A stretch of 64,000 nt of DNA, taken from Actinoplanes sp. L3-i22 (GTDB taxonomy: Bacteria > Actinomycetota > Actinomycetes > Mycobacteriales > Micromonosporaceae). The translations under genes were made by a program, and so were the position numbers. This document shows positions 13,264 to 62,549 of this stretch, piece by piece. The stretch's first letter is position 1, and every line of letters starts with the position of its first letter. The notes under the pieces are model-generated. The model worked only from the letters and a program-made list of their open reading frames with translations. It was not told where the DNA came from and made no database searches. The stretch lies in the NCBI RefSeq assembly GCF_019704555.1, contig NZ_AP024745.1:7014501-7078500 (forward strand), read 5' to 3'.

Positions 13264-13478
13264 CGGTGGCTTTCGTCGAGCGGGTTTCGCCCGGCAGGTT
13301 TCGTGCGGTGGTTTCTTCCGGTGGTTTCTTCGGGTGGTTTCGTGCCGCAGGTTTCTTCCGGTGGTTTCGTGCGGTGGTTTCTTCCGGTGGTTTCGTGCGG
13401 TGGTTTCTTCCGGTGGTTTCGTGCCGCAGGTTTCTTCCGGTGGTTTTCGTCAGCACTTCCGGTGGTTTTCGTCAGCAG
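13264..13478. repeat. 13-base minisatellite between oxidase and hglS
   Basis: About a dozen head-to-tail 13-base units alternating GGTTTCTTCCGGT and GGTTTCGTGCGGT, degenerating toward both ends (last units GGTTTTCGTCAGCA...). The frame stays open through it, but the unit length is not a multiple of three and the hglS ribosome site follows it, so it is treated as untranslated leader/intercistronic DNA. Confidence 0.9.
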
Positions 13479-13491
13479 AAGGGGAACGGCA

Positions 13492-15243
13492 ATGGTTCCG
13501 CAATGGCGGCTCCGGGCGAGGTTCGCCCAGGAGCTCTCCACGATGTACGGGCGGGAGGTTCCCGCCTACACCACGCTGGTCCAGGTCTCCGAACAGGTCA
13601 ACACCGATGTGGTACGCCGGGACGGCCGCGCCGCCGAACGCCTGGGCTCGATCGGCCGGATCACCGCGGAGCGGCACGGCGCGATCCGGGTCGGCACGCC
13701 GGCCGAGCTCGGGCAGGTCGCCCGGATCTTCGGGGCGCTCGGCATGCATCCGGTCGGCTTCTACGACCTGCGCGACGCCGCGAGCAGTTCGGTGCCGGTA
13801 ATTTCCACCGCGTTCCGGCCGATCGACGCCGGGGAGCTCGCGCGCAACCCGTTCCGGGTCTTCACCTCGATGCTGACCCCGGCCGACCCGCGGTTCTTCA
13901 CGCCGGAACTCCGCAAGCGGCTGGAGACGTTCCTGGCCGGCCGGCAGCTGTTCGGGCCGGAGCTGCTGGAGCTCGCCGACCGGGCCGAACGCGAGGGCGG
14001 CCTGGCCGAGGACGACGCAGAAAACTTCCTTCGCCGCGCGGTGCAGGCTTTCGAGCTGTCTCCCGAGCCGGTCGACCGGGCCTGGTACGGCGAGCTGGAG
14101 AAAATTTCCGCCGTCGCCGCAGACATCGGGGGCGTCCGCAGCACGCACGTCAACCACCTGACGCCGCGTGTGCTGGACATCGACGAGCTCTACCGCCGGA
14201 TGACCGGCCTGGGCATCTCGATGATCGACGAGATCCAGGGGCCGCCGCGCTGGCACGGCCCGGACGTGTTGCTGCGGCAGACGTCGTTCCGGGCGCTGGC
14301 CGAGGCTCGGACGATGCGCGAGGCCGACGGCACGATCGGCACCGGGGCGCTGCGGGTGCGCTTCGGCGAGGTGGAGGCGCGGGGCATCGCGCTCACGCCG
14401 GCTGGGCGGGCCCGCTACGACGCGCTGCTCACCGAGGTGGACCGGCGCCTCGCCGCTGCCGATCAGCGCCCGGCCACCTCCGATCGGCGCCCGCCTTCGT
14501 CCGACGGCGTGCGCGCCGAGGTCGCGGGCCAGCGCCCGGCTTCGTCCGACGGCATGCGCGCCGAGATTGCGGGCCGCCGCCTGGCGTCGTCCGACGGCGT
14601 GCGCGCTGAGATCGCGGCCCCGGGCTCGGCTTCGCCCGGGGGCCTGCGCGCCGAGATCGCGGCCGATGTCTGGGCGCAGGGCCTGCCGGACACCGAGGCG
14701 GGTCTGCGCGAGGCCGATCTCGCCTATTTCGCGTATACCGTGAGCCCGGTCCGGCCGAGCGCCGCCACCCCGCCGCGCAGCCTCGCCGAACTGGTCGACC
14801 AGGGCTGGGTGACCGCCACCCCGATCGTCTACGAGGACTTCCTGCCTCGCTCGGCCGCCGGGATCTTCCAGTCCAACCTCAGCGCGGAGGGCACCCGCGA
14901 CACCACCCAGGCCGCCGTCGCCTACGACCAGGACTGGCTCGCCGGGGCGGTCGGCCGGGACATCCACGACCCGTTCACGCTCTACGCCCAGGAACAGGCC
15001 GCGTCGATCGCGGCGGTCGCCACCCAGCTCGGCACAGTCATCACCCAGCCCGGCGCAGGCGCCACCCAGCTCGGCACAGCCGTCACCCAGCCCGGCGCAG
15101 GCGCCACCCAGCTCGGCACAGCCGTCACCCAGCCCGGCGCAGGCGCCACCCAGCTCGGCACAGCCGTCACCCAGCCCGGCGCAGGCGCCACCCAGCTCGG
15201 CACAGCCGTCACCCAGCCCGGCACCCCGGAGGTAACCCGATGA
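13492..15243 (+). CDS. hglS: 2-oxoadipate dioxygenase/decarboxylase (DUF1338, HglS) with repeat insertions
   Basis: 583 residues. DUF1338/YdcJ-family Fe(II) enzyme converting 2-oxoadipate to D-2-hydroxyglutarate in lysine breakdown. Candidate metal ligands are His62 (ITAERHGAIRVG), His222 (THVNHLTPR) and Glu293 (RFGEVEARG), close to the spacing of the described triad. ATG 13492 is preceded by AGAAGGGGA; the open frame upstream is minisatellite. Two repeat blocks enlarge the enzyme: four 15-residue units (SSDGVRAEIAGQRPA type, residues 336-395) interrupt the fold before GLPDTEAGLREADLAYF, and five 14-residue units (ATQLGTAVTQPGAG) form the C-terminal tail. Without them the length is near the usual ~450. 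Stop and the amaB start overlap (ATGA). Confidence 0.9.
   Translation: MVPQWRLRARFAQELSTMYGREVPAYTTLVQVSEQVNTDVVRRDGRAAERLGSIGRITAERHGAIRVGTPAELGQVARIFGALGMHPVGFYDLRDAASSSVPVISTAFRPIDAGELARNPFRVFTSMLTPADPRFFTPELRKRLETFLAGRQLFGPELLELADRAEREGGLAEDDAENFLRRAVQAFELSPEPVDRAWYGELEKISAVAADIGGVRSTHVNHLTPRVLDIDELYRRMTGLGISMIDEIQGPPRWHGPDVLLRQTSFRALAEARTMREADGTIGTGALRVRFGEVEARGIALTPAGRARYDALLTEVDRRLAAADQRPATSDRRPPSSDGVRAEVAGQRPASSDGMRAEIAGRRLASSDGVRAEIAAPGSASPGGLRAEIAADVWAQGLPDTEAGLREADLAYFAYTVSPVRPSAATPPRSLAELVDQGWVTATPIVYEDFLPRSAAGIFQSNLSAEGTRDTTQAAVAYDQDWLAGAVGRDIHDPFTLYAQEQAASIAAVATQLGTVITQPGAGATQLGTAVTQPGAGATQLGTAVTQPGAGATQLGTAVTQPGAGATQLGTAVTQPGTPEVTR
14497..14676 (+). repeat. Four 45-base in-frame repeats inside hglS
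   Basis: Units at 14497, 14542, 14587 and 14632 encode SSDGVRAEVAGQRPA, SSDGMRAEIAGRRLA, SSDGVRAEIAAPGSA and SPGGLRAEIAADVWA. Divergence rises toward the 3' unit. A shorter related stretch (ATSDRRPP) precedes them. Confidence 0.9.
15019..15225 (+). repeat. Five 42-base in-frame repeats at the hglS C-terminus
   Basis: Units start at 15019, 15061, 15103, 15145 and 15187 and are almost identical (ATQLGTAVTQPGAG each; first has VI). The near-perfect identity indicates recent expansion; the amaB ribosome site GGAGG (15228-15232) follows directly. Confidence 0.93.
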
Positions 15244-16847
15244 ACACCGACCAGCTGCGCGAACGCGCCCGGACCAGTCTTGCCCGGATCGGCGCCACCG
15301 TGCCCGACGGGACGGATCTTTTCGCCCGCTCCCCGATCACCGGTGACAATCTCTTCGGGCTCCGAGCCACCACCGCGGACGAGGCGATCCGGGCGATCGA
15401 CGAGGCCGACGAGGCGTTCCGGACCTGGCGGACCACGCCGGCCCCATTGCGCGGCGAACTCGTCCGCATCCTCGGCGAGCTGCTGCGCGAGCACAAGGCC
15501 GACCTCGCCGACCTGATCACCATCGAGGTCGGCAAGATCCGCTCGGAGGCGCTCGGCGAGGTCCAGGAGATGATCGACATCTGCGACTTCGCAGTCGGAT
15601 TGTCCCGGCAGCTCTACGGCAAGACGATCGCGTCCGAGCGGCCCGGTCACCGGCTCGCCGAGACCTGGCATCCGCTCGGCGTCGTCGGCGTGATCTCGGC
15701 GTTCAACTTCCCGGCCGCGGTCTGGTCCTGGAACACCGCGCTCGCGCTGGTCTGCGGCGACGCGGTGGTGTGGAAGCCCAGCGAACTGACCCCGCTGGTC
15801 TCGCTGGCCACCAGCCACCTGCTCGACCGGGCGATCGAGCGGGCCAGCGCGCCCGCCCACCTGCACCGGCTGCTGCTCGGCGACCGCGACCTCGGCTCCC
15901 TCCTCGTCGAGAGCCCGCGGGTCAGCCTGGTCAGCGCGACCGGCTCGACCCGGATGGGCCGGGAGGTCGGGCCGCGGGTCGCCGCCCGGTTCGGCCGGGT
16001 GCTGCTCGAACTCGGCGGCAACAACGCGGCGATCGTGGCCCCATCGGCGGACCTCGAGCTCACCCTGCGCGGTGTCGTGTTCGCGGCGGCCGGGACAGCC
16101 GGGCAGCGCTGCACCACCCTGCGCCGGCTGATAGTCCACCGGGACGTCGCCGACCAGTTCGTGGAGAAGCTGGCCGCGGTCTACGGACGGTTGCCGATCG
16201 GCGACCCGTTCGACGAGAACACCCTGGTCGGACCGGTGATCACCGAGGCCGCCGCGGCGTCGATGACGGCCGCGCTGGACCGTGCCCAGGCCGAGGGCGG
16301 CAAGATCGTAGCGGGCGGAGCACGCGTAGCCGCTGACGGCGGAGCACGCGTAACCACTGACAGCGGAGCACGCGTAGCCGCTGACAGCGGAGCGCACGTG
16401 GCCGCTGACGGCGGCACCTCCATCCAGCCCGCGAGCGGTGGCGGGGCTTATGTCCAGCCGGCGATCGTGCGGATGCCGCGGCAGACCGCGGTGGTCCGGG
16501 AGGAAACTTTCGCCCCGATCCTCTATGTGCTCACCTACGAGACATTCGAGGAGGCGGTGGCGCTGCACAACGACGTACCCCAAGGGTTGTCGTCCTCGAT
16601 CTTCACCCGGGATGTGCAGGAGGCGGAGCGCTTCCTGGCCGCCGACGGATCCGACTGCGGGATCGCGAACGTCAACATCGGCACGTCCGGGGCGGAGATC
16701 GGCGGCGCGTTCGGCGGTGAGAAAGAAACCGGCGGCGGGCGCGAGTCGGGATCGGACGCGTGGCGCGCCTACATGCGACGGGCCACCAACACGATCAACT
16801 ATTCGAGCGAGCTGTCCCTGGCCCAGAACGTAAGTTTCTTCAGCTGA
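15240..16847 (+). CDS. amaB: L-aminoadipate-semialdehyde/piperideine-6-carboxylate dehydrogenase (ALDH7-like)
   Basis: 535 residues. ALDH7-type signatures: EVGKIRSEALGEVQEMIDIC, GLSRQLYGKTIASERPGHRL, GVISAFNFPAAVWSWN, the cofactor turn SATGSTRMGREVG, the general base in LLELGGNNAAI and the nucleophile in GTAGQRCTTLRRL. It oxidises 2-aminoadipate-6-semialdehyde (open form of P6C) to 2-aminoadipate with NAD. ATG overlaps the hglS stop and has GGAGG 7 bases upstream, so the two are translationally coupled. Residues 360-391 are four 8-residue repeats (GARVAADG) followed by GTSIQPASGGGAYVQPAIV, i.e. an expansion in the surface loop before the conserved YVQPAIV strand; the catalytic residues are unaffected. 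Confidence 0.88.
   Translation: MNTDQLRERARTSLARIGATVPDGTDLFARSPITGDNLFGLRATTADEAIRAIDEADEAFRTWRTTPAPLRGELVRILGELLREHKADLADLITIEVGKIRSEALGEVQEMIDICDFAVGLSRQLYGKTIASERPGHRLAETWHPLGVVGVISAFNFPAAVWSWNTALALVCGDAVVWKPSELTPLVSLATSHLLDRAIERASAPAHLHRLLLGDRDLGSLLVESPRVSLVSATGSTRMGREVGPRVAARFGRVLLELGGNNAAIVAPSADLELTLRGVVFAAAGTAGQRCTTLRRLIVHRDVADQFVEKLAAVYGRLPIGDPFDENTLVGPVITEAAAASMTAALDRAQAEGGKIVAGGARVAADGGARVTTDSGARVAADSGAHVAADGGTSIQPASGGGAYVQPAIVRMPRQTAVVREETFAPILYVLTYETFEEAVALHNDVPQGLSSSIFTRDVQEAERFLAADGSDCGIANVNIGTSGAEIGGAFGGEKETGGGRESGSDAWRAYMRRATNTINYSSELSLAQNVSFFS
16317..16412 (+). repeat. Four 24-base in-frame repeats inside amaB
   Basis: Units at 16317, 16341, 16365 and 16389, consensus ggagcacgcgtagccgctga + cggc, encoding GARVAADG, GARVTTDS, GARVAADS, GAHVAADG. 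Confidence 0.9.
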
Positions 16848-17048
16848 CCGGCTCCCGGCGCGGGTTCGCACGGCGCGGCCATGAAGGAAACTTCCTGCCG
16901 CGGTGGCGCCGTCGCGAAATGCACCGTCCGGACCGGGCCGACCGGGGAGAACATACTGCCGGGCGCCGAGGCCTTCAGCGCGCCCGGCTCGGCACCACGC
17001 AACTTCGTCGTGCGCGTCCACCGCGGTCACAGCGAGATCTACGTGCCG

Positions 17049-17438: not shown

Positions 17439-17557
17439 ACCACCAGCCTAGAGCCGTCGAGGGCCCGAACCCTGGCAATGCCCGTCCCGGCCCGGCCCCG
17501 CCTGGGCCCCTCATCGGGCCGCTCTCGGACGAGCCCATCAGCCGAGGCGGGCCAGTC

Positions 17558-17711
17558 ACCCGCATCGCCATCGCCATCGCCACCGCCACCGCCACCGTCG
17601 CCGCCGCCACCGCCGCCGCCACCGCCGCCGCCGCCACCGCCGCCGCCACCGCCGCCGCCGCCGTCGCCGTCGCCGCCACCGTCGCCGTCGTCGCCGCCGC
17701 CACCGCCGTCG
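17558..17711. repeat. GCC/ACC/GTC triplet-repeat tract
   Basis: About 150 bases of nearly pure GCC, ACC, GTC and ATC triplets. It runs in frame directly into the DUF397 remnant (Ala/Thr/Val in that frame). The 547-base gap 17439-17985 holds only this tract and the remnant. Confidence 0.9.
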
Positions 17712-22863: not shown

Positions 22864-23019
22864 GAAATTTCCTCCGGCCTCAGCCGCCGCCAACTTCCTT
22901 CGGCCCCAGCCCCTGGTGACTTTCTTCGTTGCCAGCCGCAGGTAATTTCCTTCGTTGCCAGCCGCAGGTAATTTCCTTCGTTGCCAGTCGCAGGTGATTT
23001 TCTTCGCCGTCAGGCTCTG
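22864..23019. repeat. 26-base tandem array containing the AATTTCCTTCG motif
   Basis: Six units of about 26 bases (clearest at 22916, 22942, 22968, 22994; older copies at 22864 and 22890), consensus gtaatttccttcgttgccag + ccgcag. The array fills the space between the convergent PNPOx and ComB-like genes; its last unit overlaps the stop codon of the latter. Confidence 0.92.
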
Positions 23020-26749: not shown

Positions 26750-27811
26750 CTAGGTGCTGCGGTCGCCCTGGGTGCGGGTGAGGGCGAGGAACTCGCGGAT
26801 CGTCAGGGCCTCGCCGATGATCTTCTCGATCGGCAGGTCGACACCGAGCTCCCACTGCACCCGGACGATGAACCGGGACGCCGCGGTCACGTCGAAGTCC
26901 GGGAAGATCGTGGTCAGCGGGTCGTCGAGGATCCCCGGGCGGCCGTCGACGTGACCGCCGAGCTCGGTGGCGAGGCGCCGGATCCAGAGCGGGATCTGGA
27001 AGTGCTCCATCACGTCGTCCAGGAACTGGGCCCACGCCGCAGTCTGGTCGGTGGCGTGGTTGCCGGCGACGTCGAAGGTCCGCAGACCGTACCGTTGCTC
27101 AAGAAATCGTCTCTCCGGGAGTTCGAGGCCGTACCCGACGAAGTAGCCGTTCGGAGTGTCGTCGCCGAGCCGGAACCGCAGTTGGTGCAGGGCGTTCAGC
27201 AGGTCCCAGTCGGTCAGGGAGTAGCCGAGGAACAGCACCGGCCGGCGGGCGAGCAGTTCGCCGAGACCCCGCTCCACCTGCTCGTACGCGGTGCTGAACG
27301 ACAGCAGGTCGTCCTCGGAGAGGATCAGCCGGTCCCGGCTGTGCCCGATGCACCCGTGCACCTTGAGTACCCACGGTTCGGCCGGTGACTCCGGAATGTA
27401 GCGCCACGGTCCGGGCTCGTGCAGGGACAACACCCGCGGGTCGGCGCCCCGGGTGGTCCGCAGCGACCGTTCGAGCAGCTGGTCGAAGTTGGTGGTGGCG
27501 AAGAGGCTGACCGGCAACTGGCTGATCTTGGTGTGCAGGATGCCGGGGTCCCGGACCCGGCCGATCTCCTTGGCGATCAGCTCGGTGAAGGCGCGCGCCC
27601 CGAGCACCTGCCGGCACAGGTCGGCGGTGCGCAGGTTGCTGTACTCCCGGGTGAGTCTCGCCCGGGCCCGCATCAGCCGGACCAGGTCGGCCCAGGACGG
27701 CAGCCCGGCCGCGATGGAGATCCCGGCGCCCAGGAACACCACGCATTTCCCGGTCTCGATCTCCTGGGCCAGAACCGTGAGATTCGGGTCCTGCGTGTAG
27801 TCCTCCGCCAT
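26750..27811 (-). CDS. SIR2-like NAD-hydrolase/deacetylase-fold protein with carrier-protein-like C-terminus
   Basis: 353 residues. SIR2_2-type core: CVVFLGAGISIAAGLPSWAD (residues 23-42), FATTNFDQLLE (104-114, Asn108 and Asp110), LKVHGCIG with catalytic His152, and VLFLGYSLTDWDLLNAL (192-208). Such domains act as NADases in several bacterial defence proteins. Residues about 295-345 resemble an acyl/peptidyl carrier domain (ASRFIVRVQWELGVDLPIEK, IREFLAL), but where carriers have the phosphopantetheine serine (GGDS) this protein reads PDFDV, so it cannot be loaded. The fusion may serve as a protein-interaction module. It is the second gene of an operon, 18 bases after the Gfo/Idh/MocA gene. 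Function unknown; NADase activity is inference. Confidence 0.85.
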   Translation of the reverse strand: MAEDYTQDPNLTVLAQEIETGKCVVFLGAGISIAAGLPSWADLVRLMRARARLTREYSNLRTADLCRQVLGARAFTELIAKEIGRVRDPGILHTKISQLPVSLFATTNFDQLLERSLRTTRGADPRVLSLHEPGPWRYIPESPAEPWVLKVHGCIGHSRDRLILSEDDLLSFSTAYEQVERGLGELLARRPVLFLGYSLTDWDLLNALHQLRFRLGDDTPNGYFVGYGLELPERRFLEQRYGLRTFDVAGNHATDQTAAWAQFLDDVMEHFQIPLWIRRLATELGGHVDGRPGILDDPLTTIFPDFDVTAASRFIVRVQWELGVDLPIEKIIGEALTIREFLALTRTQGDRST

Positions 27812-31551: not shown

Positions 31552-31959
31552 CTACCGACGCCGCGCCCCGCGGAACCTTTCGATTCCCTTACGGCACGTC
31601 AGAGCGACCAACGGCACCAAGATCAAAATCAAGAGCAGGCCTTTCCCGTACGGGCGGGGCAGCACCGTGGGATTGCCGGCGTCCCGCCCGAAGCCCAGCA
31701 CGAGCGGCAGCGCCACCACGATCACCGCCAGGTCGGTGATCGCCGCGAGCCGGACGGTCGCCTGCCAGCGCGCCGGGACGAACCGGCGCAGCACCCGGCC
31801 CACGCCCGCGACCAGTGGAAGGAAAAATCCGTCGTGCAGCACCAGAAGCACGGCGCCGAACACCAGGACGCCGACGAGGTTGACGTCGGCGTCGAGGATC
31901 GCCCCGAGCACGCCGTACCCCATGATCAGTAACCCCGCGCCGATCAGCGGACGTCTCAT
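31552..31959 (-). CDS. Small integral membrane protein of unknown function
   Basis: 135 residues with about four spans (LIGAGLLIMGYGVLGAIL; VGVLVFGAVLLVLHDGFFLP; LAAITDLAVIVVALPLVLGF; LLLILILVPLVALTC) and a basic C-terminus. ATG overlaps the stop of the molybdopterin oxidoreductase gene by 4 bases, so it is coupled to it; it could be a partner or anchor, but no family is recognised. Confidence 0.78.
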   Translation of the reverse strand: MRRPLIGAGLLIMGYGVLGAILDADVNLVGVLVFGAVLLVLHDGFFLPLVAGVGRVLRRFVPARWQATVRLAAITDLAVIVVALPLVLGFGRDAGNPTVLPRPYGKGLLLILILVPLVALTCRKGIERFRGARRR

Positions 31960-33518
31960 GACGCCCTCCGCACGACGATCCGGCCGACCCATTTGGTCTG
32001 CAGGACGCCCGGCCGGTTCGGCGCGATCAGCCGCGCCGGGAAGCCGTGGTCGAGCGCGAGCGGCTCACCGCCGAGCCGCAGCGCGATCAGGGCCCGCGCG
32101 TCGGCCGGATCCTCCAGGACGGATGTCCGATAACGGCCGCCCGCCTGCAGCGACTCGACCTCCGCGGTGCAGTCGCCGGGGTCGGCTCCGAGTAAACCCA
32201 AAAGATCCTTCATCCGTACGCCGGTCCAGGTCCCGACCGAGCTCCAGCCCTCGACGCAGGCGATCGGCAGGACCGTGGTGTGCTGCGGCAGCGCCTGCAG
32301 GTCGGCGAGGCTAAGTGCGACAGTCCGTCCGAAACCGGTCACGGTGAGCCGGTAGTCCGGGTGCAGCGCGGCGTCGCGGACCCCGGCCGAGGCGGCGGTG
32401 CGGTTGACGGGCAGGCCCTGCGGTCCGGTGCCGGGGCGGCGGGGCGCGAGCAGGGCGATCGGGGACAGGAACCGGACGGTCTGGCCGAGCGTGGCCAGCG
32501 TGATCACCCCGGCCGCGACACCGATCGCCACCAGAAAGTTCCGGCGCTCGTTTGCGGGGTCCCGGCGGCTTTCGGCGATGCCCCGACTGCCGTCGGTAAT
32601 GTCCTGGCTGTTTTCGACGACGCCCCGGCGGCTTTCTTCGACGGCGCCCCGGCGGTCTTCGACGCCGCGCTGACGGTTTCTTTCGACGGCGCCCCGGCGG
32701 TTCTCGGTGGCGCTTTGACGGTTCTTTTCTTCGACATGCTGGCGGTTTCTTTCGACCACGCTCGGGCGGCTTTCGGTGACGTCCTGGCGGCGCAGTGCCT
32801 CACGGACCACCGGCAGTTGCACCCCGATGTGGCTGACCAGCGCGCCGGTCACCACCCAGGCCACCCAGTAGTGGGCGTCGGTAAAGAAGAACGGCATCGG
32901 GCCGTACCAGTGGGCAATGTTCAACACGCCGCTGACCAGCTGGATCAGCGCCGCCCCGACCAGCGCCGCGACGCTGATCCGCTCGGCGGCGTGCAGAACG
33001 CCGCGGACCGGCGGCCAGGCGAACAGACGCGGATAGACCGACCAGAGTTTCGCGCCGAGCAGCGGCACGGTAGCCAGCCCGGTCGCGACGTGCAGGCCCT
33101 GCGTGAACCGGTACAGCCCAGCCGGCCGGGACGGCAGCCACAGCCAGGCGGGCGGATGCTGCAGCACGTGGCTGTACAGGCCGGTGACAAAGCAGATCCC
33201 GAACGCGATCCCCAGCGCGATCCCGAGTTGGCTGGTCAGCCGCGTGGACCGCAGCGGCGACGTAAACGACTCCGGACGCACCGGCGGTTGGTTCAGCCAA
33301 CTCCCAAGCCGCCTCAACCGTTCCACGCGTCCCACGCCCGCAAGACGTCCCACCTTCCCAAGGCGTCTCACACGCTCGAGAGGTCCCGTGCTTCCAAGGC
33401 GTGCCACATTCCCGAGCCCTCTCATGTTCCAGAGACGTCTGACGCTCCCGAGGCCTCTCAAGCTCCCGAGACGGTTCAAGCGCCCGAGATGGCTCAAGCG
33501 GTCAGGCTGGCGAACCAT
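31956..33518 (-). CDS. Membrane molybdopterin-dependent (sulfite-oxidase-like) oxidoreductase with repeat regions
   Basis: 520 residues. Order: Leu/Arg/Gly repeat (residues 8-72), four b-type-cytochrome-like spans (about 97-235, with His in YSHVLQ, GLHVAT and AHYWVAWV), a charged repeat linker (245-322), a fifth span (FLVAIGVAAGVITLATLG), then a sulfite-oxidase-type Mo domain with the Mo-ligand Cys421 in LPIACVEGWSS and RLIAPNRPGVLQTKWV. It likely passes electrons between a membrane haem domain and an external Mo centre. ATG 33518 has a strong GAGGAGGGG site, so the N-terminal repeat is translated. Overlaps the methyltransferase gene by 25 bases. Confidence 0.87.
   Translation of the reverse strand: MVRQPDRLSHLGRLNRLGSLRGLGSVRRLWNMRGLGNVARLGSTGPLERVRRLGKVGRLAGVGRVERLRRLGSWLNQPPVRPESFTSPLRSTRLTSQLGIALGIAFGICFVTGLYSHVLQHPPAWLWLPSRPAGLYRFTQGLHVATGLATVPLLGAKLWSVYPRLFAWPPVRGVLHAAERISVAALVGAALIQLVSGVLNIAHWYGPMPFFFTDAHYWVAWVVTGALVSHIGVQLPVVREALRRQDVTESRPSVVERNRQHVEEKNRQSATENRRGAVERNRQRGVEDRRGAVEESRRGVVENSQDITDGSRGIAESRRDPANERRNFLVAIGVAAGVITLATLGQTVRFLSPIALLAPRRPGTGPQGLPVNRTAASAGVRDAALHPDYRLTVTGFGRTVALSLADLQALPQHTTVLPIACVEGWSSVGTWTGVRMKDLLGLLGADPGDCTAEVESLQAGGRYRTSVLEDPADARALIALRLGGEPLALDHGFPARLIAPNRPGVLQTKWVGRIVVRRAS
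32553..32786 (-). repeat. 24-base in-frame repeats in the linker of the Mo oxidoreductase
   Basis: Residues 245-322 are degenerate 8-residue units such as RRGAVERN, RQRGVEDR, RGAVEESR, RGVVENSQ: highly charged, probably helical, lying between the cytochrome-like spans and the Mo domain. Confidence 0.85.
33303..33497 (-). repeat. Degenerate Leu/Arg/Gly repeat at the N-terminus of the Mo oxidoreductase
   Basis: Residues 8-72 repeat a 10-residue pattern such as RLGSLRGLGS, VRRLWNMRGL, VRRLGKVGRL; the DNA units are about 30 bases (cccgagacggttcaagcg-like). Strongly basic and ahead of the first membrane span. Confidence 0.82.
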
Positions 33519-37004: not shown

Positions 37005-37128
37005 TCCCGGCCTTCCGGGCCGGCAGAGCTCGGCTGACAGCGGGCCGTCTTCGCCCGCGTACCGGTGGCCGTCTTCGCACGCGCCCTGCGGGGCGTATTC
37101 GCATGCGCCCCGCAGCGCGGCTGAGCCC
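36978..37128 (+). repeat. 31-base direct repeat, copies 120 bases apart, carrying a start codon
   Basis: 36978-37008 and 37098-37128 are almost identical (ttcgcatgcgccccgctgcg...). Each contains ATG CGC CCC GC(T/A) GCG CGG CTG, i.e. MRPAARL. The first copy also holds the epimerase stop codon and has AAGGAG upstream; the second has no ribosome site. Confidence 0.85.
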
Positions 37129-41599: not shown

Positions 41600-41850
41600 C
41601 CCCGCGCCCACGGGTGACGGAACCCCAGCCGCGAACAGCAAACAGCGAACCGCGCCGAAGCCCATGCCCACGGCCGCGAACAGCGCCCGGGCCCGCGCCC
41701 GCGCCCGCGTACAGCAAAAGCAAACCGCGCCCATGCCCACGGCCGCGAACAGCGCCCGGGCCCGCGCCCGCGAAAGCAAACCGCGCCCACGTCCGCGGCC
41801 GCGAACAGCACCCGCACCCACGCCCACGCCCGCACCCGCGAACAGCGACC
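41600..41850. repeat. GC-rich degenerate repeats in a 562-base gap
   Basis: The gap 41556-42117 has no credible gene. Its first half is built of cgcgaacagcgcccgggccc-type repeats; the longest copies (41662-41709 and 41731-41776) are 69 bases apart. The second half (41853-42117) is unique sequence in which I see no gene. Confidence 0.8.
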
Positions 41851-42117
41851 AGGTCTGGACGTAACGCGGCGGCCGGTGCCGCCGACAACGACACCGGTCG
41901 GTGGCTGGACGAGGAGATCCGCTCCGTCAGCAACGAGCCCAGGACCCGTCGGCGCAGCAAGACCGCAGCACCGAGGACCTACTGCTCCTGCGGTCGACGC
42001 GATCGTCGACGTCGCGGTCAGCCGCTGCCCGCCGCAGCCCGCTGCTGACCGTCGGGCCGGGCGTGCGTGCGAACCCGGATCATCGGTGAGCGCCGAACAC
42101 CGCCACAGGCCCGCTCC

Positions 42118-43683
42118 TCACACGTCGGCAATGACGGAGGCGCGCAACCGGCGGAGCGCCTCCGTGCGCACGCCGGCCCAGGCAGGAGATCCGGTCAGCG
42201 ACGCCGCACGCACCGGCACCTGCCGGGGCATCCGCGCCATCGCCGCCCGGATCTCGCTGATCAGAAACGGCCCCCACGACCCACCGACAACAATTTCCTT
42301 CGGATCGGCGAGGGCAATGACGGCGGCGATCACCCCGCTCACGGCGATGGCGATCGTCTCTCGTTCGACGGTGGAACTTTCCTTCAGGCGTGCGACGTCG
42401 ACGGCGGTCGAACCAGGTCGCCGCAGCCCCAGTTCCCCGAAGAGCTCGATGAACGGAATCGCCCGCCCGCCCGGCCCGACGGTCAGCAGATGCGAGATCT
42501 CCCCGGTCAGCCCGCTCGACCCACGCCGGATCTCGCCGTCGTCGACGATCGCCGCCCCGAGCCCCTCCCCGAGGTAAAGGTAAGCGAAGTCGCGCTGCCC
42601 CTCCGCGGCCGCCGCCCAGTTCACGTCGTTGTCGACAACAACCGGCCCGTCCACGTAGCCGGCAAGAATCGCCACCGGATCCAGCGCCCCCACCAGAAAC
42701 GGCGAGTCCGGCAACTGCACAAGCCGCCCCGTAGCCCGATCCACCGGATCCGCAGCGCTGACCACCGCCAACCGAATCGGCTGCTCCCCGGCACCCCAGG
42801 AAGAACCGGCCAGCTCCGCCGGCCGAGCCTCAGCAAACTCTTCCCGCCGGACATCGGCGCCCAACGCACCTCCCACGCCTTCCCGCCGGACATCGGCGCC
42901 CAACGCACCTCCCACGCCTTCCCGCCGGACATCGGCGCCCAACGCACCTTCCACACCATCCCGCCGGACATCGGCGCCTCCTGCGCCTCCCCGCAGGACG
43001 CGGGCCATTCCTGCCTCTTCCGGCCGCAAACCGGCAGCGCCGCCGCGCAGGACCCCAGCCACCTCCGCCAGCACCGCCCCAACCCGGCTCGCCTCGGTCT
43101 GCCTGGTCACGGAGGCCACGCTGTCGCCGTACACGTTCAGGCACTCCGCGACGACACCCTCCGGAGCGATCGTGACGGCCAGTGCCACACCGACCGCCGG
43201 CGCCAGCGCGTAATACGACCCCACTCGCCCCCGCCCGCGCCCACCTTGGGTCCGCTCCCCGGTGTCGGTGACCAGCCCCCGCTCGACCAGGCGCCGCACA
43301 CTCTCCCCCGCCGTCGGCTTGGAGATACCGATCTCCACCGCCAGTTCCGCCCGGGTCAGACGCCGATGCCGGGTCAACGCACGAAGCACGTGCTCGTCCG
43401 TGAGCGAACGAACCAGATCCTGCGAAGCCACTCGGCCAGTTTCACCCGCCCCTGAACGACCAGGGCCGTCCGGTGCCGGACGGCCGGCTTCACCCACCCC
43501 TGAACGACCACGGCCCTCCGGCGCCAAACGGCCGGCTTCACCCACCCCTGAACTACCAACGACCTCAGGCGCCGGGCGGCCCGGCTCCCCCACCTGCGAC
43601 CCGGCCAGATCCTGCGCTGGCGCGCGCACGAGTTCCCCTGACCGCGGGCGACCCAGATCCTGCGACGGCTCGGCGGTATCCAC
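42118..43683 (-). CDS. ROK-family transcriptional regulator with two repeat expansions
   Basis: 521 residues. Winged HTH LTDEHVLRALTRHRRLTRAE, LAVEIGISKPTAGESVRRLV (residues 93-133) and an ROK sugar-kinase-like domain (VVVDNDVNWAAAAEGQRDFA, LYLGEGLGAAIVDDGEIRRG, GLTGEISHLL). Two repeats enlarge it: an N-terminal Gly/Pro/Arg array (8-84) and 12-residue units GALGADVRREGV (about 210-287) between strands of the ROK domain. Normal members are about 380 residues. The true start may be the GTG at VASQDLVRSL (residue 85); GTG 43683 has no clear ribosome site. Divergent from the DUF1479 gene and likely its regulator. Confidence 0.85.
   Translation of the reverse strand: MDTAEPSQDLGRPRSGELVRAPAQDLAGSQVGEPGRPAPEVVGSSGVGEAGRLAPEGRGRSGVGEAGRPAPDGPGRSGAGETGRVASQDLVRSLTDEHVLRALTRHRRLTRAELAVEIGISKPTAGESVRRLVERGLVTDTGERTQGGRGRGRVGSYYALAPAVGVALAVTIAPEGVVAECLNVYGDSVASVTRQTEASRVGAVLAEVAGVLRGGAAGLRPEEAGMARVLRGGAGGADVRRDGVEGALGADVRREGVGGALGADVRREGVGGALGADVRREEFAEARPAELAGSSWGAGEQPIRLAVVSAADPVDRATGRLVQLPDSPFLVGALDPVAILAGYVDGPVVVDNDVNWAAAAEGQRDFAYLYLGEGLGAAIVDDGEIRRGSSGLTGEISHLLTVGPGGRAIPFIELFGELGLRRPGSTAVDVARLKESSTVERETIAIAVSGVIAAVIALADPKEIVVGGSWGPFLISEIRAAMARMPRQVPVRAASLTGSPAWAGVRTEALRRLRASVIADV
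42823..43056 (-). repeat. 36-base in-frame repeats in the ROK regulator
   Basis: Three near-identical units encode GALGADVRREGV; degenerate flanking units (RGGAGGADVRRDGVE, EEFAEARPAELAG) extend the block. Plus-strand units read ttcccgccggacatcggcgc + ccaacgcacctcccacgc. Confidence 0.92.
43432..43662 (-). repeat. Repeats at the N-terminus of the ROK regulator
   Basis: Units of about 57-60 bases encode GVGEAGRLAPEGRGRS, GVGEAGRPAPDGPGRS, GAGETGRVASQDLVRS, the last leading into the real DNA-binding domain. This suggests that the 5' end of the coding sequence itself was amplified upstream. Confidence 0.82.
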
Positions 43684-45059: not shown

Positions 45060-45147
45060 TCGAAAGAAACCAGCGGCGGAGAAATCCAACGGCGGAAAGT
45101 ACCCAGCGGCAAAAGCCAACGGCGGAAGAAATCGGCGGCGGAAAGAA
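45060..45147. repeat. Degenerate ggcggaaag repeats between DUF1479 and LuxR genes
   Basis: About five units around 18-20 bases (agcggcggagaaatccaacg, gcggaaagtacccagcggca, ...) fill the convergent gap of 114 bases up to the LuxR stop. Confidence 0.75.
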
Positions 45148-49814: not shown

Positions 49815-49821
49815 CGCCTAC

Positions 49822-49902
49822 GTCATTTCCGGCCGCAGACGTCACTCCCCGTTCGCGGCCGTAGTTTCCGGCCGCAGACGTCACCGGCGTCCGCGGCCGT
49901 CA
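49822..49902. repeat. 39-base imperfect repeats with TTTCCGG core
   Basis: 49822-49844 and 49861-49883 share 21 of 23 positions (gt(c/a)(a/g)tttccggccgcagacg...); a partial third copy ends near 49902. Fills the gap between the small membrane protein and the MFS gene. Confidence 0.78.
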
Positions 49903-51543: not shown

Positions 51544-52293
51544 ATGCCGCCGACTCCGCAGGACCGCCGCGCCGCACGACACCAGGCCGGGCCGGCCACA
51601 CCCGCGGGTCGGCGCGGCCCGTCCGGCGGGCGCAAACAGCCGATCACGGTCGACCTGATCATCAGCACCGCGTTCGGCATCATCGAGACCGAGGGCTACG
51701 AGGCGCTGACGATGCGGCGCCTGGCGGTCGCGCTGGAGACCGGCCCGTCGTCGCTCTACGCCCACGTGGTCAACAAGGAAGACCTCGACGAGCTGCTCAT
51801 CGGCCGGCTGTGCGCCGAGATCCCGCTGCCCGCGCCGGACCCGGCCGCCTGGCGGACCCAGATCGCCGGCGTCTGCACCCGGCTGCGCGATCAGTACCTG
51901 CGGTACCCGGGCATCTCCCAGGCCACCTTCGCCGCCGCCCCGTCCAATCTGGACACCCTGCGGGTGAGCGAGGGCATGCTCGCCATCCTGCTGGCCGGCG
52001 GCATCCCACCGCAGGTCGCGGCGTGGGCGATCGACTCACTGACGCTGTATGTCAACGCGTACAGCCTCGAAGTCTCCCTGGCTAACCGCCGCGCCGCCCG
52101 CAGCGACGACGGCTGGGTGATCAGCCGCGACGAGATGCTGCGGCGAATCGCCGCGCTGCCAGAAACTTTCCCCCAAACCAAGAGGTACGGCGCGGAGCTC
52201 ACCGCCGGCACCACTCACGACCGCTTCGACTTCACCATCGCCCTGCTGCTCGACGGCCTCCCCGCCGCAAACCCCCACAGCACCGGCACCTGA
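51544..52293 (+). CDS. TetR-family repressor (TetR_C-type)
   Basis: 249 residues. Basic N-terminal extension, HTH EGYEALTMRRLAVALETGPS, SLYAHVVNKEDLDELLIGRL and a long C-terminal drug-binding domain of the tetracycline-repressor group (ITVDLIISTAFGI; LDTLRVSEGMLAILLAGGIP). Divergent from the DHA2 exporter with operators between: a classical efflux pump/repressor pair. The hexamer array starts 7 bases after its stop codon. Confidence 0.94.
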   Translation: MPPTPQDRRAARHQAGPATPAGRRGPSGGRKQPITVDLIISTAFGIIETEGYEALTMRRLAVALETGPSSLYAHVVNKEDLDELLIGRLCAEIPLPAPDPAAWRTQIAGVCTRLRDQYLRYPGISQATFAAAPSNLDTLRVSEGMLAILLAGGIPPQVAAWAIDSLTLYVNAYSLEVSLANRRAARSDDGWVISRDEMLRRIAALPETFPQTKRYGAELTAGTTHDRFDFTIALLLDGLPAANPHSTGT

Positions 52294-52300: not shown

Positions 52301-52600
52301 CTCGCCCTCGCCCTCGCCCTCGCCCTCGCCCTCGCCCTCGCCCTCGCCCTCGCCCTCGCCCTCGCCCTCGCCCTCGCCCTCGCCCTCGCCCTCGCCCTCG
52401 CCCTCGCCCTCGCCCTCGCCCTCGCCCTCGCCCTCGCCCTCGCCCTCGCCCTCGCCCTCGCCCTCGCCCTCGCCCTCGCCCTCGCCCTCGCCCTCGCCCT
52501 CGCCCTCGCCCTCGCCCTCGCCCTCGCCCTCGCCCTCGCCCTCGCCCTCGCCCTCGCCCTCGCCCTCGCCCTCGCCCTCGCCCTCGCCCTCGCCCTCGCC
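52301..52600. repeat. Perfect hexanucleotide array (CTCGCC)50
   Basis: Exactly 300 bases of uninterrupted CTCGCC, 50 copies, starting 7 bases after the TetR stop. Open frames on the minus strand (Gly-Glu or Arg-Gly dipeptides) are a by-product. Part of a 634-base gap (52294-52927) with no credible gene. Confidence 0.97.
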
Positions 52601-54019: not shown

Positions 54020-55035
54020 CGGCTTCTCCTGGCCCGGGCGCGCAGCAGGTCGGCGCCCACCGCGACGATGATGAACACGCCGACGAACAGGTCGGACAAC
54101 TGCGATTTCCAGCCCAGTTGGGTGACGCCGGAGCTCACCGACTGCACCAGCAGGGCGCCGAGCAGGGTGCCGAGAACCGAGCCACGGCCACCCATGATCG
54201 AGGTGCCGCCGATGACGACTGCGGCGATGACGGCAAGTTCCTTCCCGGAGCCGACCGACTGGTCGAGTGTCGACGTGCCCTGCGCGATCAGGAAGCACGC
54301 GGCCAGGCCGACGAGCACGCCGGTGATCGTGTAGGCGAGCAGGATGCGGCGCTGCACCCGGACCCCGGCGAGCCGGGCCGCGACCGGGTCGCCGCCGATC
54401 GCGAAGAAGTGCCGCCCACCCGCGGTGTGCCGCAGGTACCACCAGACCGCGGCGGTGATCAGCACCGTGATCAGGAAGGCGTGCGGGATCCCGAGGGTGC
54501 GGCCCTCGGTGCCGCGGCCGAAGAACGCCAGAGTGCCGGGGATGCCGTTGACCGTGGTCGATCCGAAGATGCGCAGGCCGAGGAAGGTGAAAAGATTCGC
54601 CGTGCCGAACGTGATGATGATGGCGTGCACCCGCCCGTAGGCGATCAGCACTCCGTTGACCAGCCCGAGCACCGCACCGGCGACGACCGAGATCAGTACC
54701 GCCACGCCGAGGTTCACGCCCGAGTCGACCAGGGCCTTGGCGGTGAGGACGGAGCAGACCATCATCGCGCCGCCGACCGAGACGTCGATGCCGCCGGTGA
54801 TGATGATGATCGTCATGCCGACGCCGACCAGAGCGACCGGCGCGGTCGCGACCAGCAGCGGCTGCAGCGATCCGGAGGTCAGGAACGCCGGGGTGGTCAG
54901 CGCGAGCGCGATCCACAGCAGGGCGATCACCGCGACCAGGACCAGTTCCTGGCCGGAGACCGGGGCGGGCAGTACCCGCCCGCGCGGTTTCGGTGGGTCG
55001 GTGGCGGCCGGCGGCCGCACAGCGGTGGTCGTCAT
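54016..55035 (-). CDS. Sugar ABC transporter permease (RbsC/RhaP-like), first
   Basis: 339 residues. IIIITGGIDVSVGGAMMVCS, GRHFFAIGGDPVAARLAGVR and VIGGTSIMGGRGSVLGTLLG place it in the same permease family. Overlaps both neighbours by 4 bases, so expression is coupled. Two different permeases plus a double ATPase and one binding protein is the layout of rhamnose (RhaSTPQ) and AI-2 (Lsr) systems. Confidence 0.93.
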   Translation of the reverse strand: MTTTAVRPPAATDPPKPRGRVLPAPVSGQELVLVAVIALLWIALALTTPAFLTSGSLQPLLVATAPVALVGVGMTIIIITGGIDVSVGGAMMVCSVLTAKALVDSGVNLGVAVLISVVAGAVLGLVNGVLIAYGRVHAIIITFGTANLFTFLGLRIFGSTTVNGIPGTLAFFGRGTEGRTLGIPHAFLITVLITAAVWWYLRHTAGGRHFFAIGGDPVAARLAGVRVQRRILLAYTITGVLVGLAACFLIAQGTSTLDQSVGSGKELAVIAAVVIGGTSIMGGRGSVLGTLLGALLVQSVSSGVTQLGWKSQLSDLFVGVFIIVAVGADLLRARARRSR

Positions 55036-56858
55036 CCGACCTTCTCCTTCACGGAATCATCGTCCTCACCAGCACCGATCTTCCCCCGGGCGTCCGTCAC
55101 CGAGTCCCCCGCGGAACTCCCCGGGCCGTCTCCGTCAGAAATCTCAGCCACCGCCTCGCTGCCGGAAACCTCCGCCGAAGCCTCGCTGCCGGAATCGTCC
55201 GCCGCGGGCTGTGTGTCGGAAACCTCCGCCGTGGACTCGCTGGTGGCAACCTCCACCGCGGACTTGCTGTTGGGAAGTTCCGCCGCGACCTCGGTGGGGG
55301 AACTTTCCGAGACAGACGCCTCCGGATTGGTGGGGCTTGAAGTGGTTGCCGGGTCGTCCTTGGAGCCCGCGGCGGCGGCCAGCAACTCCACCTGGGTGGC
55401 GTCCGGGCCGAATTCGGCCGTCGTGGTGCCGCCGCGGACCACCTGGATGCGGTCGGCGATGCGCAGCGCCTCCGGCAGGTCGGAGGTCACCACCAGGACC
55501 GCGGTGCCCTCGTCGGCGAGCTCGGTGATGATCCGGTGGATCTCCTCCTTGGCGCCGACGTCCACGCCCTGGGTCGGCTCGGCCAGGATCAGCACGTCCG
55601 GCCGCTCGACCAGCTGCCGGGCGAGCACCACCTTCTGCGCGTTGCCGCCGGACATCGCGCTGATCGGCTGGCGCTCGTGCGGGGTCTTCACGGCCAGCCG
55701 CTTGATCAGGCCCAGCGCGACCTCACGCTCCCTACCGCGGTCCAGGAACGCGCCGAAGCGGGACAGCAGCTTCAGGTGCCCGGCGGAGATGTTGAACGCG
55801 ATCGACTGGAAGCCGAACATGCCCTCCGCCTTGCGGTTGGCCGGCAGCAGCGCGATGCCGAGCCGCTGGGCTTCGCGGGGCGAGCGCGGGCTGACCGGCT
55901 TGCCGTGCAGTCGCAGGTCGCCGGCGGTAGCGCGGTCGATGCCGTAGACGCAGGCCGCGATCTCCGAGACACCGGAGCCGACCAGGCCGTAGAGAGCGAC
56001 GATCTCACCCTTGCGGACGGCGACATCAACCGCATGAAACTTTCCGTCGCGGGCGAGGTTGCGCAGCTCCAGGACGGCCGGGCCATCGGGGACCGCTCGG
56101 TGCGGGCGTGCGTCGGAAAGGATCCCACCGACCATCAGCTCGGCGATCCTGCGGACGGTGAGGTCGCTGATGCCGTACGTCCCAATGGTTTGCCCGTCTC
56201 TCATCACCGTGACCTCGTCGGCGATGCGGAACAGCTCGTCCAGGCGGTGCGAGATGTAGACGACCGAGACGCCGGCGCTGGTCAGGCGGCGGACGACGTC
56301 GAAGAGCACCTCGATCTCGGCGTCGGTGAGGATGGCCGAGGGCTCGTCGAGGATCAGCACGCGAGCGTCGCCGGCCAGGGCCTTGGCGATGGAGATCTGC
56401 TGCTGCTCGGCGATCGAGAGCGTGCCGACCGGGACGGTGGCGACATGTGCGGGCAGGCCGAGCAGGTCGAGCAGCTCGACGACCTTGGCGTTCTGGGCGG
56501 ACCAGTCGACGCGGCCGTGCTTCTTCAGTTCGCGGCCGAGGAAGATATTTTCCGCCACCGTGAGCTCGGCAAAAAGTTGCGGCTCCTGGTAGACCGTGGC
56601 GATACCCAGGGCGAGCGCGTCGGTGGTGGAACGGATGGCCACCTCGGCGCCGTCGAACTCGATCACGCCGGTGTCCGCGGCCTCCACCCCGGAGACGATC
56701 TTGATCATCGTCGACTTGCCGGCGCCGTTCTCCCCCACCAGGGCGTGCACCTGCCCCGGTCGTACCGTCAGATCTGCCTGGCGAATCGCGCGGACCGCGC
56801 CGAACCGCTTCGAAATGCCGGACAGCCGCAACCGCGGGGTTTCGTCTTCTTCTGCCAC
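55032..56858 (-). CDS. Double-domain sugar ABC transporter ATPase (RbsA-like) with acidic repeat tail
   Basis: 608 residues. First domain: Walker A ALVGENGAGKSTMIKI, Q-loop YQEPQLF, signature LSIAEQQQISIAKAL, Walker B VLILDEPSAILT, H-loop VYISHRLDEL. Second domain has a degenerate Walker A (LYGLVGSGVSEI) and signature AMSGGNAQKVVLARQL, Walker B VLILAEPTQGVD, as usual for RbsA. After VELLAAAAGS about 110 residues of Ser/Glu/Ala/Val-rich repeats (SESTAEVSDTQ, SGSEASAEVSGSEAVAEIS) are added (encoded at about 55044-55370), absent from normal family members. GTG 56858 has GGAAGAG upstream. Confidence 0.92.
   Translation of the reverse strand: MAEEDETPRLRLSGISKRFGAVRAIRQADLTVRPGQVHALVGENGAGKSTMIKIVSGVEAADTGVIEFDGAEVAIRSTTDALALGIATVYQEPQLFAELTVAENIFLGRELKKHGRVDWSAQNAKVVELLDLLGLPAHVATVPVGTLSIAEQQQISIAKALAGDARVLILDEPSAILTDAEIEVLFDVVRRLTSAGVSVVYISHRLDELFRIADEVTVMRDGQTIGTYGISDLTVRRIAELMVGGILSDARPHRAVPDGPAVLELRNLARDGKFHAVDVAVRKGEIVALYGLVGSGVSEIAACVYGIDRATAGDLRLHGKPVSPRSPREAQRLGIALLPANRKAEGMFGFQSIAFNISAGHLKLLSRFGAFLDRGREREVALGLIKRLAVKTPHERQPISAMSGGNAQKVVLARQLVERPDVLILAEPTQGVDVGAKEEIHRIITELADEGTAVLVVTSDLPEALRIADRIQVVRGGTTTAEFGPDATQVELLAAAAGSKDDPATTSSPTNPEASVSESSPTEVAAELPNSKSAVEVATSESTAEVSDTQPAADDSGSEASAEVSGSEAVAEISDGDGPGSSAGDSVTDARGKIGAGEDDDSVKEKVG
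55044..55370 (-). repeat. Acidic in-frame repeat tail of the ABC ATPase
   Basis: Degenerate units of about 30-36 bases, plus strand cctccgccg(a/t)ggac(t/c)cgctg-like, giving SESTAEVS, SGSEASAEVS, SGSEAVAEIS. GGAACTTTCC occurs inside at 55299-55308. Confidence 0.82.
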
Positions 56859-58066: not shown

Positions 58067-58177
58067 CAGTCACTACCGCCAGTGGATCTTGAGGTTTAAA
58101 ACCTTTCACCCGGCGCGATCACGGCAGCCCGGGCGGCACTTCCACCAACGCGTCGCGCTGATCCGGGCGCGCGATCT

Positions 58178-58200: not shown

Positions 58201-58290
58201 CGCTCCACACGTCGGCGCGGCGCCCGGGCAGCCCGACACCAGGGAAGGCCATTCACGGCGCAAACCCAAACCCGGTCAAGGCGCGGCGCG

Positions 58291-58350
58291 ACGCGGCACG
58301 GCACGGCACGACGCGGCACGACGAGGCACGACGCGGCACGACGCGGTTGG
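58291..58350. repeat. 10-base tandem repeat acgcggcacg
   Basis: Six head-to-tail 10-base units with few mismatches, 25 bases from the MarR stop codon. Confidence 0.85.
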
Positions 58351-58374
58351 GATCAAGGGCAGGGCCAGGTGCTG

Positions 58375-58818: not shown

Positions 58819-58879
58819 ATCCACACTATATCCGCCTACCGTAGTGGGCATCAGCAAACTATTTTTGGAGCGGCTCGCC

Positions 58880-59728: not shown

Positions 59729-59754
59729 TGGCGAAAGTTTTCGCCATCAGCGGG
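59721..59754 (+). terminator. Perfect 16-bp hairpin over the SDR stop codon
   Basis: CCCGCTGATGGCGAAA (59721-59736) pairs perfectly with TTTCGCCATCAGCGGG (59739-59754). The stop codon TGA (59726-59728) is inside the left arm, and the apex is the recurrent GCGAAA-GT-TTTCGC sequence. Confidence 0.8.
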
Positions 59755-60033
59755 CCGGTGGCGAACGGATACACCCAAGCGGTGTGAGCACGATGGGTTC
59801 GGCCGGAGGCGCTGGTAGTGATTGGACGGATAGCCGAGGTGCACGGGCCAGCCCGAAGGCGCGAAAGGCGGACAGGCCCCGGAACGAGGACGGCAAACGC
59901 AAAGCGACGGGCTGGGCACCAAAGCCGGCGGGCGAAGACGGGTGGGCCGACGCCGGCTGGGGCGGAGATGGCATGCCGGGCCGAGGTGGAAGCCGCGCCG
60001 AGTCCGGCGGCGAACCAAGGCGCGAACCGGGCC

Positions 60034-60470
60034 GAGGCAGGGCGCAGGCCGAGGCAGGGCGCAGGCCGAGGCAGGGCGCAGGCCGAGGCAGGGCGCAGGC
60101 CGAGGCAGGGCGCAGGCCGAGGCAGGGCGCAGGCCGAGGCAGGGCGCAGGCCGAGGCAGGGCGCAGGCCGAGGCAGGGCGCAGGCCGAGGCAGGGCGCAG
60201 GCCGAGGCAGGGCGCAGGCCGAGGCAGGGCGCAGGCCGAGGCAGGGCGCAGGCCGAGGCAGGGCGCAGGCCGAGGCAGGGCGCAGGCCGAGGCAGGGCGC
60301 AGGCCGAGGCAGGGCGCAGGCCGAGGCAGGGCGCAGGCCGAGGTGGGAGCAGGCCGAGGCAGGGCGCAGGCCGAGGTGGGAGCAGGCCGAGGTGGGAGCA
60401 GGCCGAGGTGGGAGCAGGCCGAGGTGGGAGCAGGCCGAGGTGGGAGCAGGCCGAGGTGGGAGCTGGGTGG
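60034..60470. repeat. 17/16-base tandem array
   Basis: Eighteen perfect copies of gaggcagggcgcaggcc (60034-60339), one 16-base variant gaggtgggagcaggcc, one further 17-mer, then five 16-base copies and a partial one. Because 17 is not a multiple of 3, all three plus frames stay open as Arg/Ala/Gly repeats. The surrounding 832-base gap (59755-60560) contains no credible gene. Confidence 0.96.
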
Positions 60471-60560
60471 GTTTGAGTATTTGTAACGGCTGGTTGATGT
60501 ATGTGAAACGGTGGCCTTACAGTCGGCCGACTTGACTCCGCGGGTGGAAGGGGTGTCACG

Positions 60561-62021: not shown

Positions 62022-62238
62022 GCCGGACCACGGCGCGCCGCGACATCCGGCCGCGGCGCGCCGCACCTGGAGTTCCGCTCCCGGAACGCCACGTCACGAG
62101 GCCGGACCGCATTTCGACAGAGCGCAGCGCGCGACCGGGCAGCGACGCCCGGCCGCGCCGCAGCGCGTGGCCGCGAGGCGACGTGAGACCGCGAGACCGC
62201 AGGTGATCGCCGGATAGCGGTCGACCACGAGCGACGGT

Positions 62239-62549
62239 TGGTGGTGCGGGGATGCGGTGGTGCGGCCATGCGGCGACGGTTGGTGGTGCGGCCATGCGAT
62301 GGTGCGGCCATGCGGCGATACGCCGGCGCGGCGACGCGATGCGGTGCCGCGATGCGATGCGGCGACGCATCTCGGCGATCCGGCGGCGCGATCCGGCGGC
62401 GCGGCGCGATCCGGCGGCGCGGCGCGATCCGGCGGCGCGGCGCGATCCGGCGGCGCGGCGCGATCCGGCGGCGCGGCGCGATCCGGCGGCGCGGCGCGAT
62501 CCGGCGGCGCGGCGCGGTCCGGCGGCGCGGCGCGATCCGGCGGCGCGGC
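62239..62549. repeat. ggtgcggccatgcg repeats and nine 18-base units
   Basis: 62239-62310 has irregular ggtggtgcggccatgcg copies; 62388-62549 is nine units of gcgatccggcggcgcggc (one with a single A-to-G change). All frames are open on both strands; none has family similarity. The 603-base gap 62022-62624 holds nothing else recognisable. Confidence 0.93.

Follow-up and report, generated by a model that had tools for sequence, protein, structure and literature searches.

Species-private, frame-keeping tandem arrays in an Actinoplanes genome and a raised array load shared with four other genomes of the genus

The window, a 64-kb stretch (G000:C1:7014501-7078500) of an Actinoplanes genome of 12,014,766 bp assembled as a single contig, combines conserved metabolic and regulatory genes with tandem arrays that lie both within these genes and between them. 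When overlapping rows were merged and a score cut-off of at least 100 was applied, TRF identified 19 tandem arrays (297/Mb, 5.6% of the bases), compared to none in one dinucleotide shuffle of the window, i.e. the head-to-tail repeats exceed chance, as in bacterial minisatellites or variable-number tandem repeat (VNTR) loci. The arrays that an earlier note on this DNA had named, in genes and between them, were all recovered by TRF. Most of the gene names given there were backed by Pfam (HglS, AmaB, PF00174, DUF2064, Abhydrolase_3, ABC_tran and ROK), but the open reading frame (ORF) that it called a membrane glycosyltransferase had no Pfam match.

Between genes, the arrays comprise a 13-bp array with higher-order periods of 53 and 79 bp upstream of hglS (13297-13446), a 6/12/27-bp array (17563-17711), a 26-bp array (22881-23006), a 6/31/56-bp array (41645-41851), a 33-bp array (45062-45139), a 39-bp array (49820-49900, with the 39-bp row at 49826-49900), a period-6 array consisting of 50 copies of CTCGCC with 100% matches (52301-52600), a 10-bp array (58282-58346), a 17-bp array of 25.5 copies with 97% matches (60030-60456) and a composite 13/18/42/54/58-bp array (62231-62584) that includes 9.3 copies of an 18-bp unit at 62383-62550. 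The CTCGCC array begins 8 bases past the stop codon of a TetR-family gene (51544-52293); it is free of interruptions and so is either very young or held uniform. The intergenic periods listed in the earlier note (6, 10, 13, 17, 18, 26 and 39 bp) were all found by TRF, except that one 39-bp array (42840-42978) turned out to lie inside a ROK-family regulator. Elsewhere in the window, a 353-aa protein encoded on the reverse strand (26750-27811) is weakly similar to the N-terminal region of Dsr2, a sirtuin (37.6 bits against a cut-off of 1400).

HglS, a 2-oxoadipate dioxygenase/decarboxylase (13492-15243, forward strand; PF07063), carries two arrays on the same strand: a 45-bp array (14487-14662) that repeats a resident GVRAEIA-type segment and a 42-bp array at the C-terminus (15018-15222) that repeats a resident TQLGT-type segment ahead of the conserved end. 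In the alignment, both inserts are missing from the orthologues of A. liguriensis, A. regularis and A. cyaneus, where the GVRAEIA-type segment is present in a single copy. The protein is 583 aa long by the start used here, compared to 443-495 aa in all 119 other listed matches (best 120 of 8,000 scored); its nearest named relatives are from Actinoplanes, and it forms a one-member cluster (P0001). Because homologues begin near residue 81 of the longest ORF, the 13-bp array was placed upstream of hglS rather than within it. In A. liguriensis and A. cyaneus, the same upstream site is also occupied by arrays, whose units differ from that of the window (13 bp and 39 bp; L009:4369-4405 and L011:5754-5978). 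The adjoining AmaB-type aldehyde dehydrogenase (15240-16847, forward strand; PF00171) contains a 24-bp array on the same strand (16314-16414), which in the alignment is a 34-residue insertion at GGARVAADGG, missing in three Actinoplanes orthologues. As read from these alignments, the units in HglS and AmaB are copies of resident local sequence; the arrays of the genome being mostly unrelated to each other, the earlier proposal of local amplification stands.

A larger part of the window could be compared gene by gene with a relative, G168, contig 88 of which is collinear with the window over 30.7-47.0 kb at 74-86% identity. Nine of the 10 window arrays with a score of at least 80 in this stretch fall in eight gaps between the aligned blocks; the lone exception is the intergenic 33-bp array at 45062-45139, which lies inside an alignable block apart from insertions of 8 and 6 nt. 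In G168, the collinear stretch contains a single array with a score of at least 80, located elsewhere than the window arrays. Seven of the gaps are within window ORFs, all on the reverse strand unless stated otherwise. Two are in a molybdopterin oxidoreductase (31956-33518; PF00174), at a 45-bp array (32561-32727; window 222 nt longer than G168) and at an N-terminal 18/36-bp array (33410-33500; 84 nt longer); most oxidoreductase orthologues align as two blocks flanking the window insert, and four align as one block. Two adjoining 30/60-bp arrays lie in the C-terminal tail of the DUF2064 ORF, past its protein-alignable part (34178-34506; 249 nt longer). ORF 36983-38788, which is conserved in G168 and has no Pfam match, contains a 30-bp array on the forward strand (38113-38182) in a gap that is 369 nt longer in the window. 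An alpha/beta-hydrolase of the esterase type (PF07859) has a 15/30-bp array N-terminal to the domain (39584-39823; 240 nt longer); the best esterase matches begin past this insert, and three also include the part before it. Finally, the ROK-family regulator with a winged helix-turn-helix (HTH) (42118-43683; 521 aa; Pfam ROK) has a 39-bp array in a loop (42840-42978; 249 nt longer) and a 48-bp array N-terminal to the HTH (43433-43594; 141 nt longer). All seven length differences are multiples of three, an outcome with a chance probability of about 5e-4. The eighth gap is intergenic, holds the 6/31/56-bp array and differs by -5144 nt (window vs. G168), which is not a multiple of three; the corresponding epimerase-ROK intergenic site (window 41641-42117) has about 5.1 kb of extra sequence in G168 (L314).

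Alignment with a second relative, the draft genome G176, which contains runs of Ns (L315, G176:C268:1-16000), produced 14 gaps relative to the window, 7 of which contain Ns. Among the N-free gaps, 4 of 7 are multiples of three and 3 are not (36632, 37009 and 40625); window arrays occupy 3 of the N-free gaps, each of which is a multiple of three, and the 3 non-multiples hold none. Four of the seven N runs are at window array sites, suggesting that these runs are unresolved repeats and that short-read assemblies hide repeats in relatives. Orthologues with the same segments at constant length, the outcome that the earlier note had named as contrary to its view, were found neither in the orthologue alignments nor in the synteny with G168.

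The ROK regulator was followed through the genus by means of the adjoining Gig2-like gene, which was detected in 45 of 67 Actinoplanes genomes; 30 loci were kept, in none of which does the Gig2-like gene have an internal array of score at least 60. In the regulator, inserts of 6-133 residues occupy seven sites, including the C-terminal end, and one of the sites is used by 14 of the 30 sequences; an additional site is filled solely with Ns. Arrays were detected in 14 of 29 sequences (window included, L235 dropped due to Ns), 17 arrays altogether, and all 17 periods are multiples of three. Only one of the 136 pairs of these arrays is similar in sequence, namely, that from the sister genomes G166 and G172, the regulators of which share 96.2% identity, with an in-frame difference of a single 24-nt unit within the array; the other gap between the two is the C-terminal end of the aligned piece. 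Thus, presence of arrays (9 of 10 sites in the comparison with G168) and copy number (one unit between G166 and G172) differ between close relatives, as is typical of minisatellites. With respect to the Gig2-like gene, two loci deviate: at G022:C1:7735611-7735879, it is present in fragments only, one with a TGA, and is likely a remnant, and contig G006:C6 carries two equally scoring copies about 136 kb apart.

The AlphaFold model of the window ROK regulator, built with an alignment of 26 rows (L235, L249, L255 and L257 left out), has a mean pLDDT of 65, with values greater than 90 in the HTH part. Two stretches with a pLDDT below 50, residues 7-77 (with one exception) and 223-295, cover most of both arrays (residues 30-93 and 236-282); a third such stretch, residues 365-394, is free of arrays. 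In the sugar ABC ATPase (55032-56750 or longer, reverse strand; ABC_tran), a 27-bp array identified by TRF (55153-55287, same strand) lies in a long C-terminal tail that follows a core of the family length; this tail is partly common only to A. cyaneus P0121 (16 aligned), including the last residues. Taken together, the ABC ATPase and ROK alignments and the AlphaFold model bear out the claim that the inserts are located in loops, linkers and termini, and show that the conserved cores are spared. A small parallel case is P0135, an environmental relative of the ABC ATPase, in which a C-terminal segment of its own, TQVDVLAAAAGAE, is repeated.

When the reading frame was considered across the sampled high-load loci and the window (periods under 7 left out), the period is divisible by three in 38 of 38 in-gene arrays, a figure that is partly circular given that the gene caller requires an open frame, compared to 4 of 15 arrays at gene edges and 49 of 101 arrays between genes. 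The intergenic fraction exceeds one third, probably because some of these arrays lie in missed gene ends. In the window, TRF yielded in-gene units of 45 and 42 bp in HglS, 24 bp in AmaB, 45 and 36 bp in the oxidoreductase, and 30 bp in the DUF2064 ORF, ORF 36983-38788 and the esterase, in agreement with the earlier observation that in-gene units are multiples of three; the list in the earlier note (24, 30, 36, 42 and 45) is correct but short of units of 27, 39 and 48 bp, which are also in genes. The frame filter proposed there is upheld by the 17 of 17 ROK periods and the 7 of 7 ORF gaps relative to G168.

Array load was estimated from random 20-kb stretches, 400 kb in total for the genome of the window and 200 kb for each of four other Actinoplanes; the 23 genomes drawn as relatives all belong to the same genus as the window. 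The genome of the window had 45 arrays in 400 kb (112/Mb; TRF, score at least 100) and none in dinucleotide shuffles, with overdispersed counts of 0 to 7 per 20 kb; extrapolation to the whole genome yields an estimate of roughly 1,300 such arrays. The array density of the window is about 2.6 times that of this random sample. The four other high-load Actinoplanes have 145, 95, 130 and 85 arrays/Mb, and three low-load congeners have 30, 14 and 71 arrays/Mb. The pooled loads are 113/Mb for the five Actinoplanes genomes (95% bootstrap interval 84-146; 60 loci), 38/Mb for the three congeners (21-56; 24 loci) and 46/Mb for nine other genera of the family (28-67; 36 loci). The high group differs from the congeners and from the other genera with p = 0.002 each (one-sided Mann-Whitney test, score at least 100), the grouping having been made after the loads were seen, except that G140 and G023 were drawn before their loads were known. 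At this cut-off the groups overlap (G023, 71/Mb; genus g18, 100/Mb); at a score of at least 150, the loads are 73/Mb in the high group vs. 23/Mb in the congeners (p = 0.001) and 14/Mb in the other genera (p = 2e-5). Streptomyces loci (24 loci) and a mixed set (L036-L088, 53 loci including further Streptomyces and one Chloroflexi MAG) showed 29/Mb and 12/Mb, respectively, although these are hglS neighbourhoods, i.e. non-random samples that may understate the load of those genera. Thus, the genome is not exceptional by itself, as had been suggested, since the load is similar in four other Actinoplanes genomes; the raised minisatellite load is a clade-level feature of five Actinoplanes genomes, broader than the earlier note held. 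The five high-load genomes also share residues in DnaE1 that are missing in the three low-load ones; as sequence characters considered outside any tree, these would fit a high-load clade.

Repeats of this kind are known. Bacterial minisatellites and VNTR loci, used in MLVA typing, similarly consist of head-to-tail units of about 6-100 bp, in or between genes, with copy numbers that differ between relatives; Actinoplanes is distinguished by an unusual density and by the many conserved metabolic enzymes and regulators affected. The satellites of a prokaryote survey (Subirana and Messeguer 2019, PMC6749651) are likewise species-specific, and its available text reports multiple-of-three repeats as amino-acid repeats in genes. 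In Table 1 of that survey, the densities obtained with its own program are 4.20/Mb for S. coelicolor, 23.0/Mb for the top bacterium and 89/Mb for the top archaeon; Actinoplanes appears neither in this table nor in the text of the survey as available. By a roughly comparable rule (TRF, at least about 4 copies, period at least 10, score at least 100), which differs in scale from that of PMC6749651, five Actinoplanes have 55-65/Mb compared to 19/Mb in Streptomyces loci. Hence Actinoplanes, at about three times the Streptomyces density, is high for bacteria, but within the known range and probably not above Methanosarcina. The Bacillus tandem repeats of constant size and variable sequence (PMC8161180) also differ in sequence between arrays and species, but, in the part of that report available, their units are constant at 20-21 or 52 nt, whereas the unit sizes in Actinoplanes are broad. 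Phase-variable contingency loci share the location of tandem repeats inside genes; in Actinoplanes, by contrast, the in-gene units keep the frame (38 of 38 in genes, 17 of 17 in the ROK regulator), so that a change in repeat number causes no frame shift. Short repeats are depleted on average in bacteria, according to the accessible portion of another survey (PMC12699852). The literature searched contained no paper on tandem-repeat load in Actinoplanes, and the word 'tandem' does not occur in the main text, as available, of the SE50/110 genome paper (PMC3364876). The kind of repeat is therefore known; the scale and recurrence are new.

The comparisons show that the arrays are private to species, with births at different sites that recur at the same protein loops with unrelated units. 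Accordingly, we consider it likely that these bacteria, in which MutS was undetected, undergo continuing local birth and turnover of minisatellites, with the reading frame and the tolerance of the fold acting as filters. That the arrays originate locally and are filtered by frame is apparent from the data, and the order of the steps is our inference. In this scheme, 6 to about 100 bp of resident sequence would be duplicated head to tail, conceivably via template switching or illegitimate recombination; the copies would then expand, shrink and diverge, presumably by slippage or unequal crossing-over; purifying selection would remove the cases that break the frame or the fold; and the array would eventually be lost or blurred. 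The permissive background may be that of actinomycetes that lack MutS and depend on NucS, which leaves indels uncorrected, with a further factor that would raise the load in the high-load clade.

The repair genes bear on this background. MutS (MutS_V) was undetected in 8 of 8 Actinoplanes, high- and low-load alike, which rules out its loss as a clade-specific cause, and NucS is present in all 8, which excludes NucS loss; Ku is present in 17 of 17 genomes. MutS was found in 1 of the 17 genomes searched: unlike the other 16, one family member has two MutS_V-type matches (G040:C1:5993272-5995289). Loss of DnaE1 PHP proofreading is unlikely as well, given that the HVH, DG, DHGNM, C and TNDSH stretches, which we take to include the metal-binding residues of the PHP domain, are kept in the five high-load and three low-load genomes (usable sequence from 10 of 11 genomes, G049 being left out by the motif filter). 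According to the part of PMC8228993 available, NucS is unable to correct indels, a task that the PHP domain of DnaE may perform. Thus, the repair-gene findings account for the permissive background, yet leave the within-genus difference unaccounted for.

One tentative answer is that the Actinoplanes clade is a natural minisatellite-mutator lineage, in which tandem duplication is sped up by a heritable change in replication or recombination that is distinct from the loss of MutS, NucS or DnaE1 proofreading, so that loops and linkers are remodelled species by species and repeatedly at a few permissive sites. It is also possible, if doubtful, that birth is no faster and that the large genomes of the clade purge neutral insertions less well, allowing ordinary high-GC minisatellites to persist. 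Most arrays are indeed intergenic or in tolerant loops and the genomes are large, MutS is missing in the low-load relatives too, and neither NucS nor Ku nor the DnaE1 PHP motifs set the high-load group apart from the low-load one. However, the low-load G157 and G140 (9.1-9.4 Mb) are much the same size as the high-load G016 and G022 (9.2 Mb), and near-uniform arrays, such as the 6-bp unit in 50 copies at 100% and the 17-bp unit in 25.5 copies at 97%, suggest recent expansion.

Selection for the arrays as tunable linkers or switches of enzyme or regulator activity appears improbable: although the same loops of the ROK regulator have been extended repeatedly in different species, units that are multiples of three do not allow on/off switching by frame, the units are unrelated and missing in most close orthologues, and the genes hit are metabolic genes of dissimilar kinds. 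We regard a mobile or enzyme-made repeat family spreading through the genome as very improbable. At E <= 1e-3, 14 of 1953 array pairs are alike, but 7 such pairs are also obtained with shifted control intervals, neighbouring arrays or very GC-rich short units are involved in two of the best pairs, and the units in HglS and AmaB match their own flanks; a single related unit at many places, as in dispersed REP/MIRU-like repeats, was thus not observed. That the arrays are assembly or sequencing artefacts is hardly credible, in spite of the coincidence of 4 of the 7 N runs in the G176 draft with array sites, because all 7 in-frame gaps and all 17 ROK arrays, from many separate assemblies, preserve codon phase, and the genome of the window is one contig.

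If continuing birth and turnover of minisatellites is the correct reading, Actinoplanes, a tractable genus with industrially used members, offers hundreds of loci at which the evolution of protein length by tandem duplication can be watched, with the low-load congeners as built-in controls. The arrays are possible strain-typing markers, and annotation of Actinoplanes calls for caution given that private repeats distort enzyme lengths, start sites and draft assemblies.

Two features of the arrays themselves were also recorded. With regard to microhomology at the junctions, perfect two-copy duplications run past two units by a median of 4 nt, compared to an expected mean of 0.84 nt; however, many of these belong to larger arrays and few are recent, and a clear signature at the junctions did not emerge. 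G-quadruplex motifs of the G3+ type occur in 17% of 63 arrays vs. 6% of shifted controls, the arrays being GC-richer (mean 0.765).
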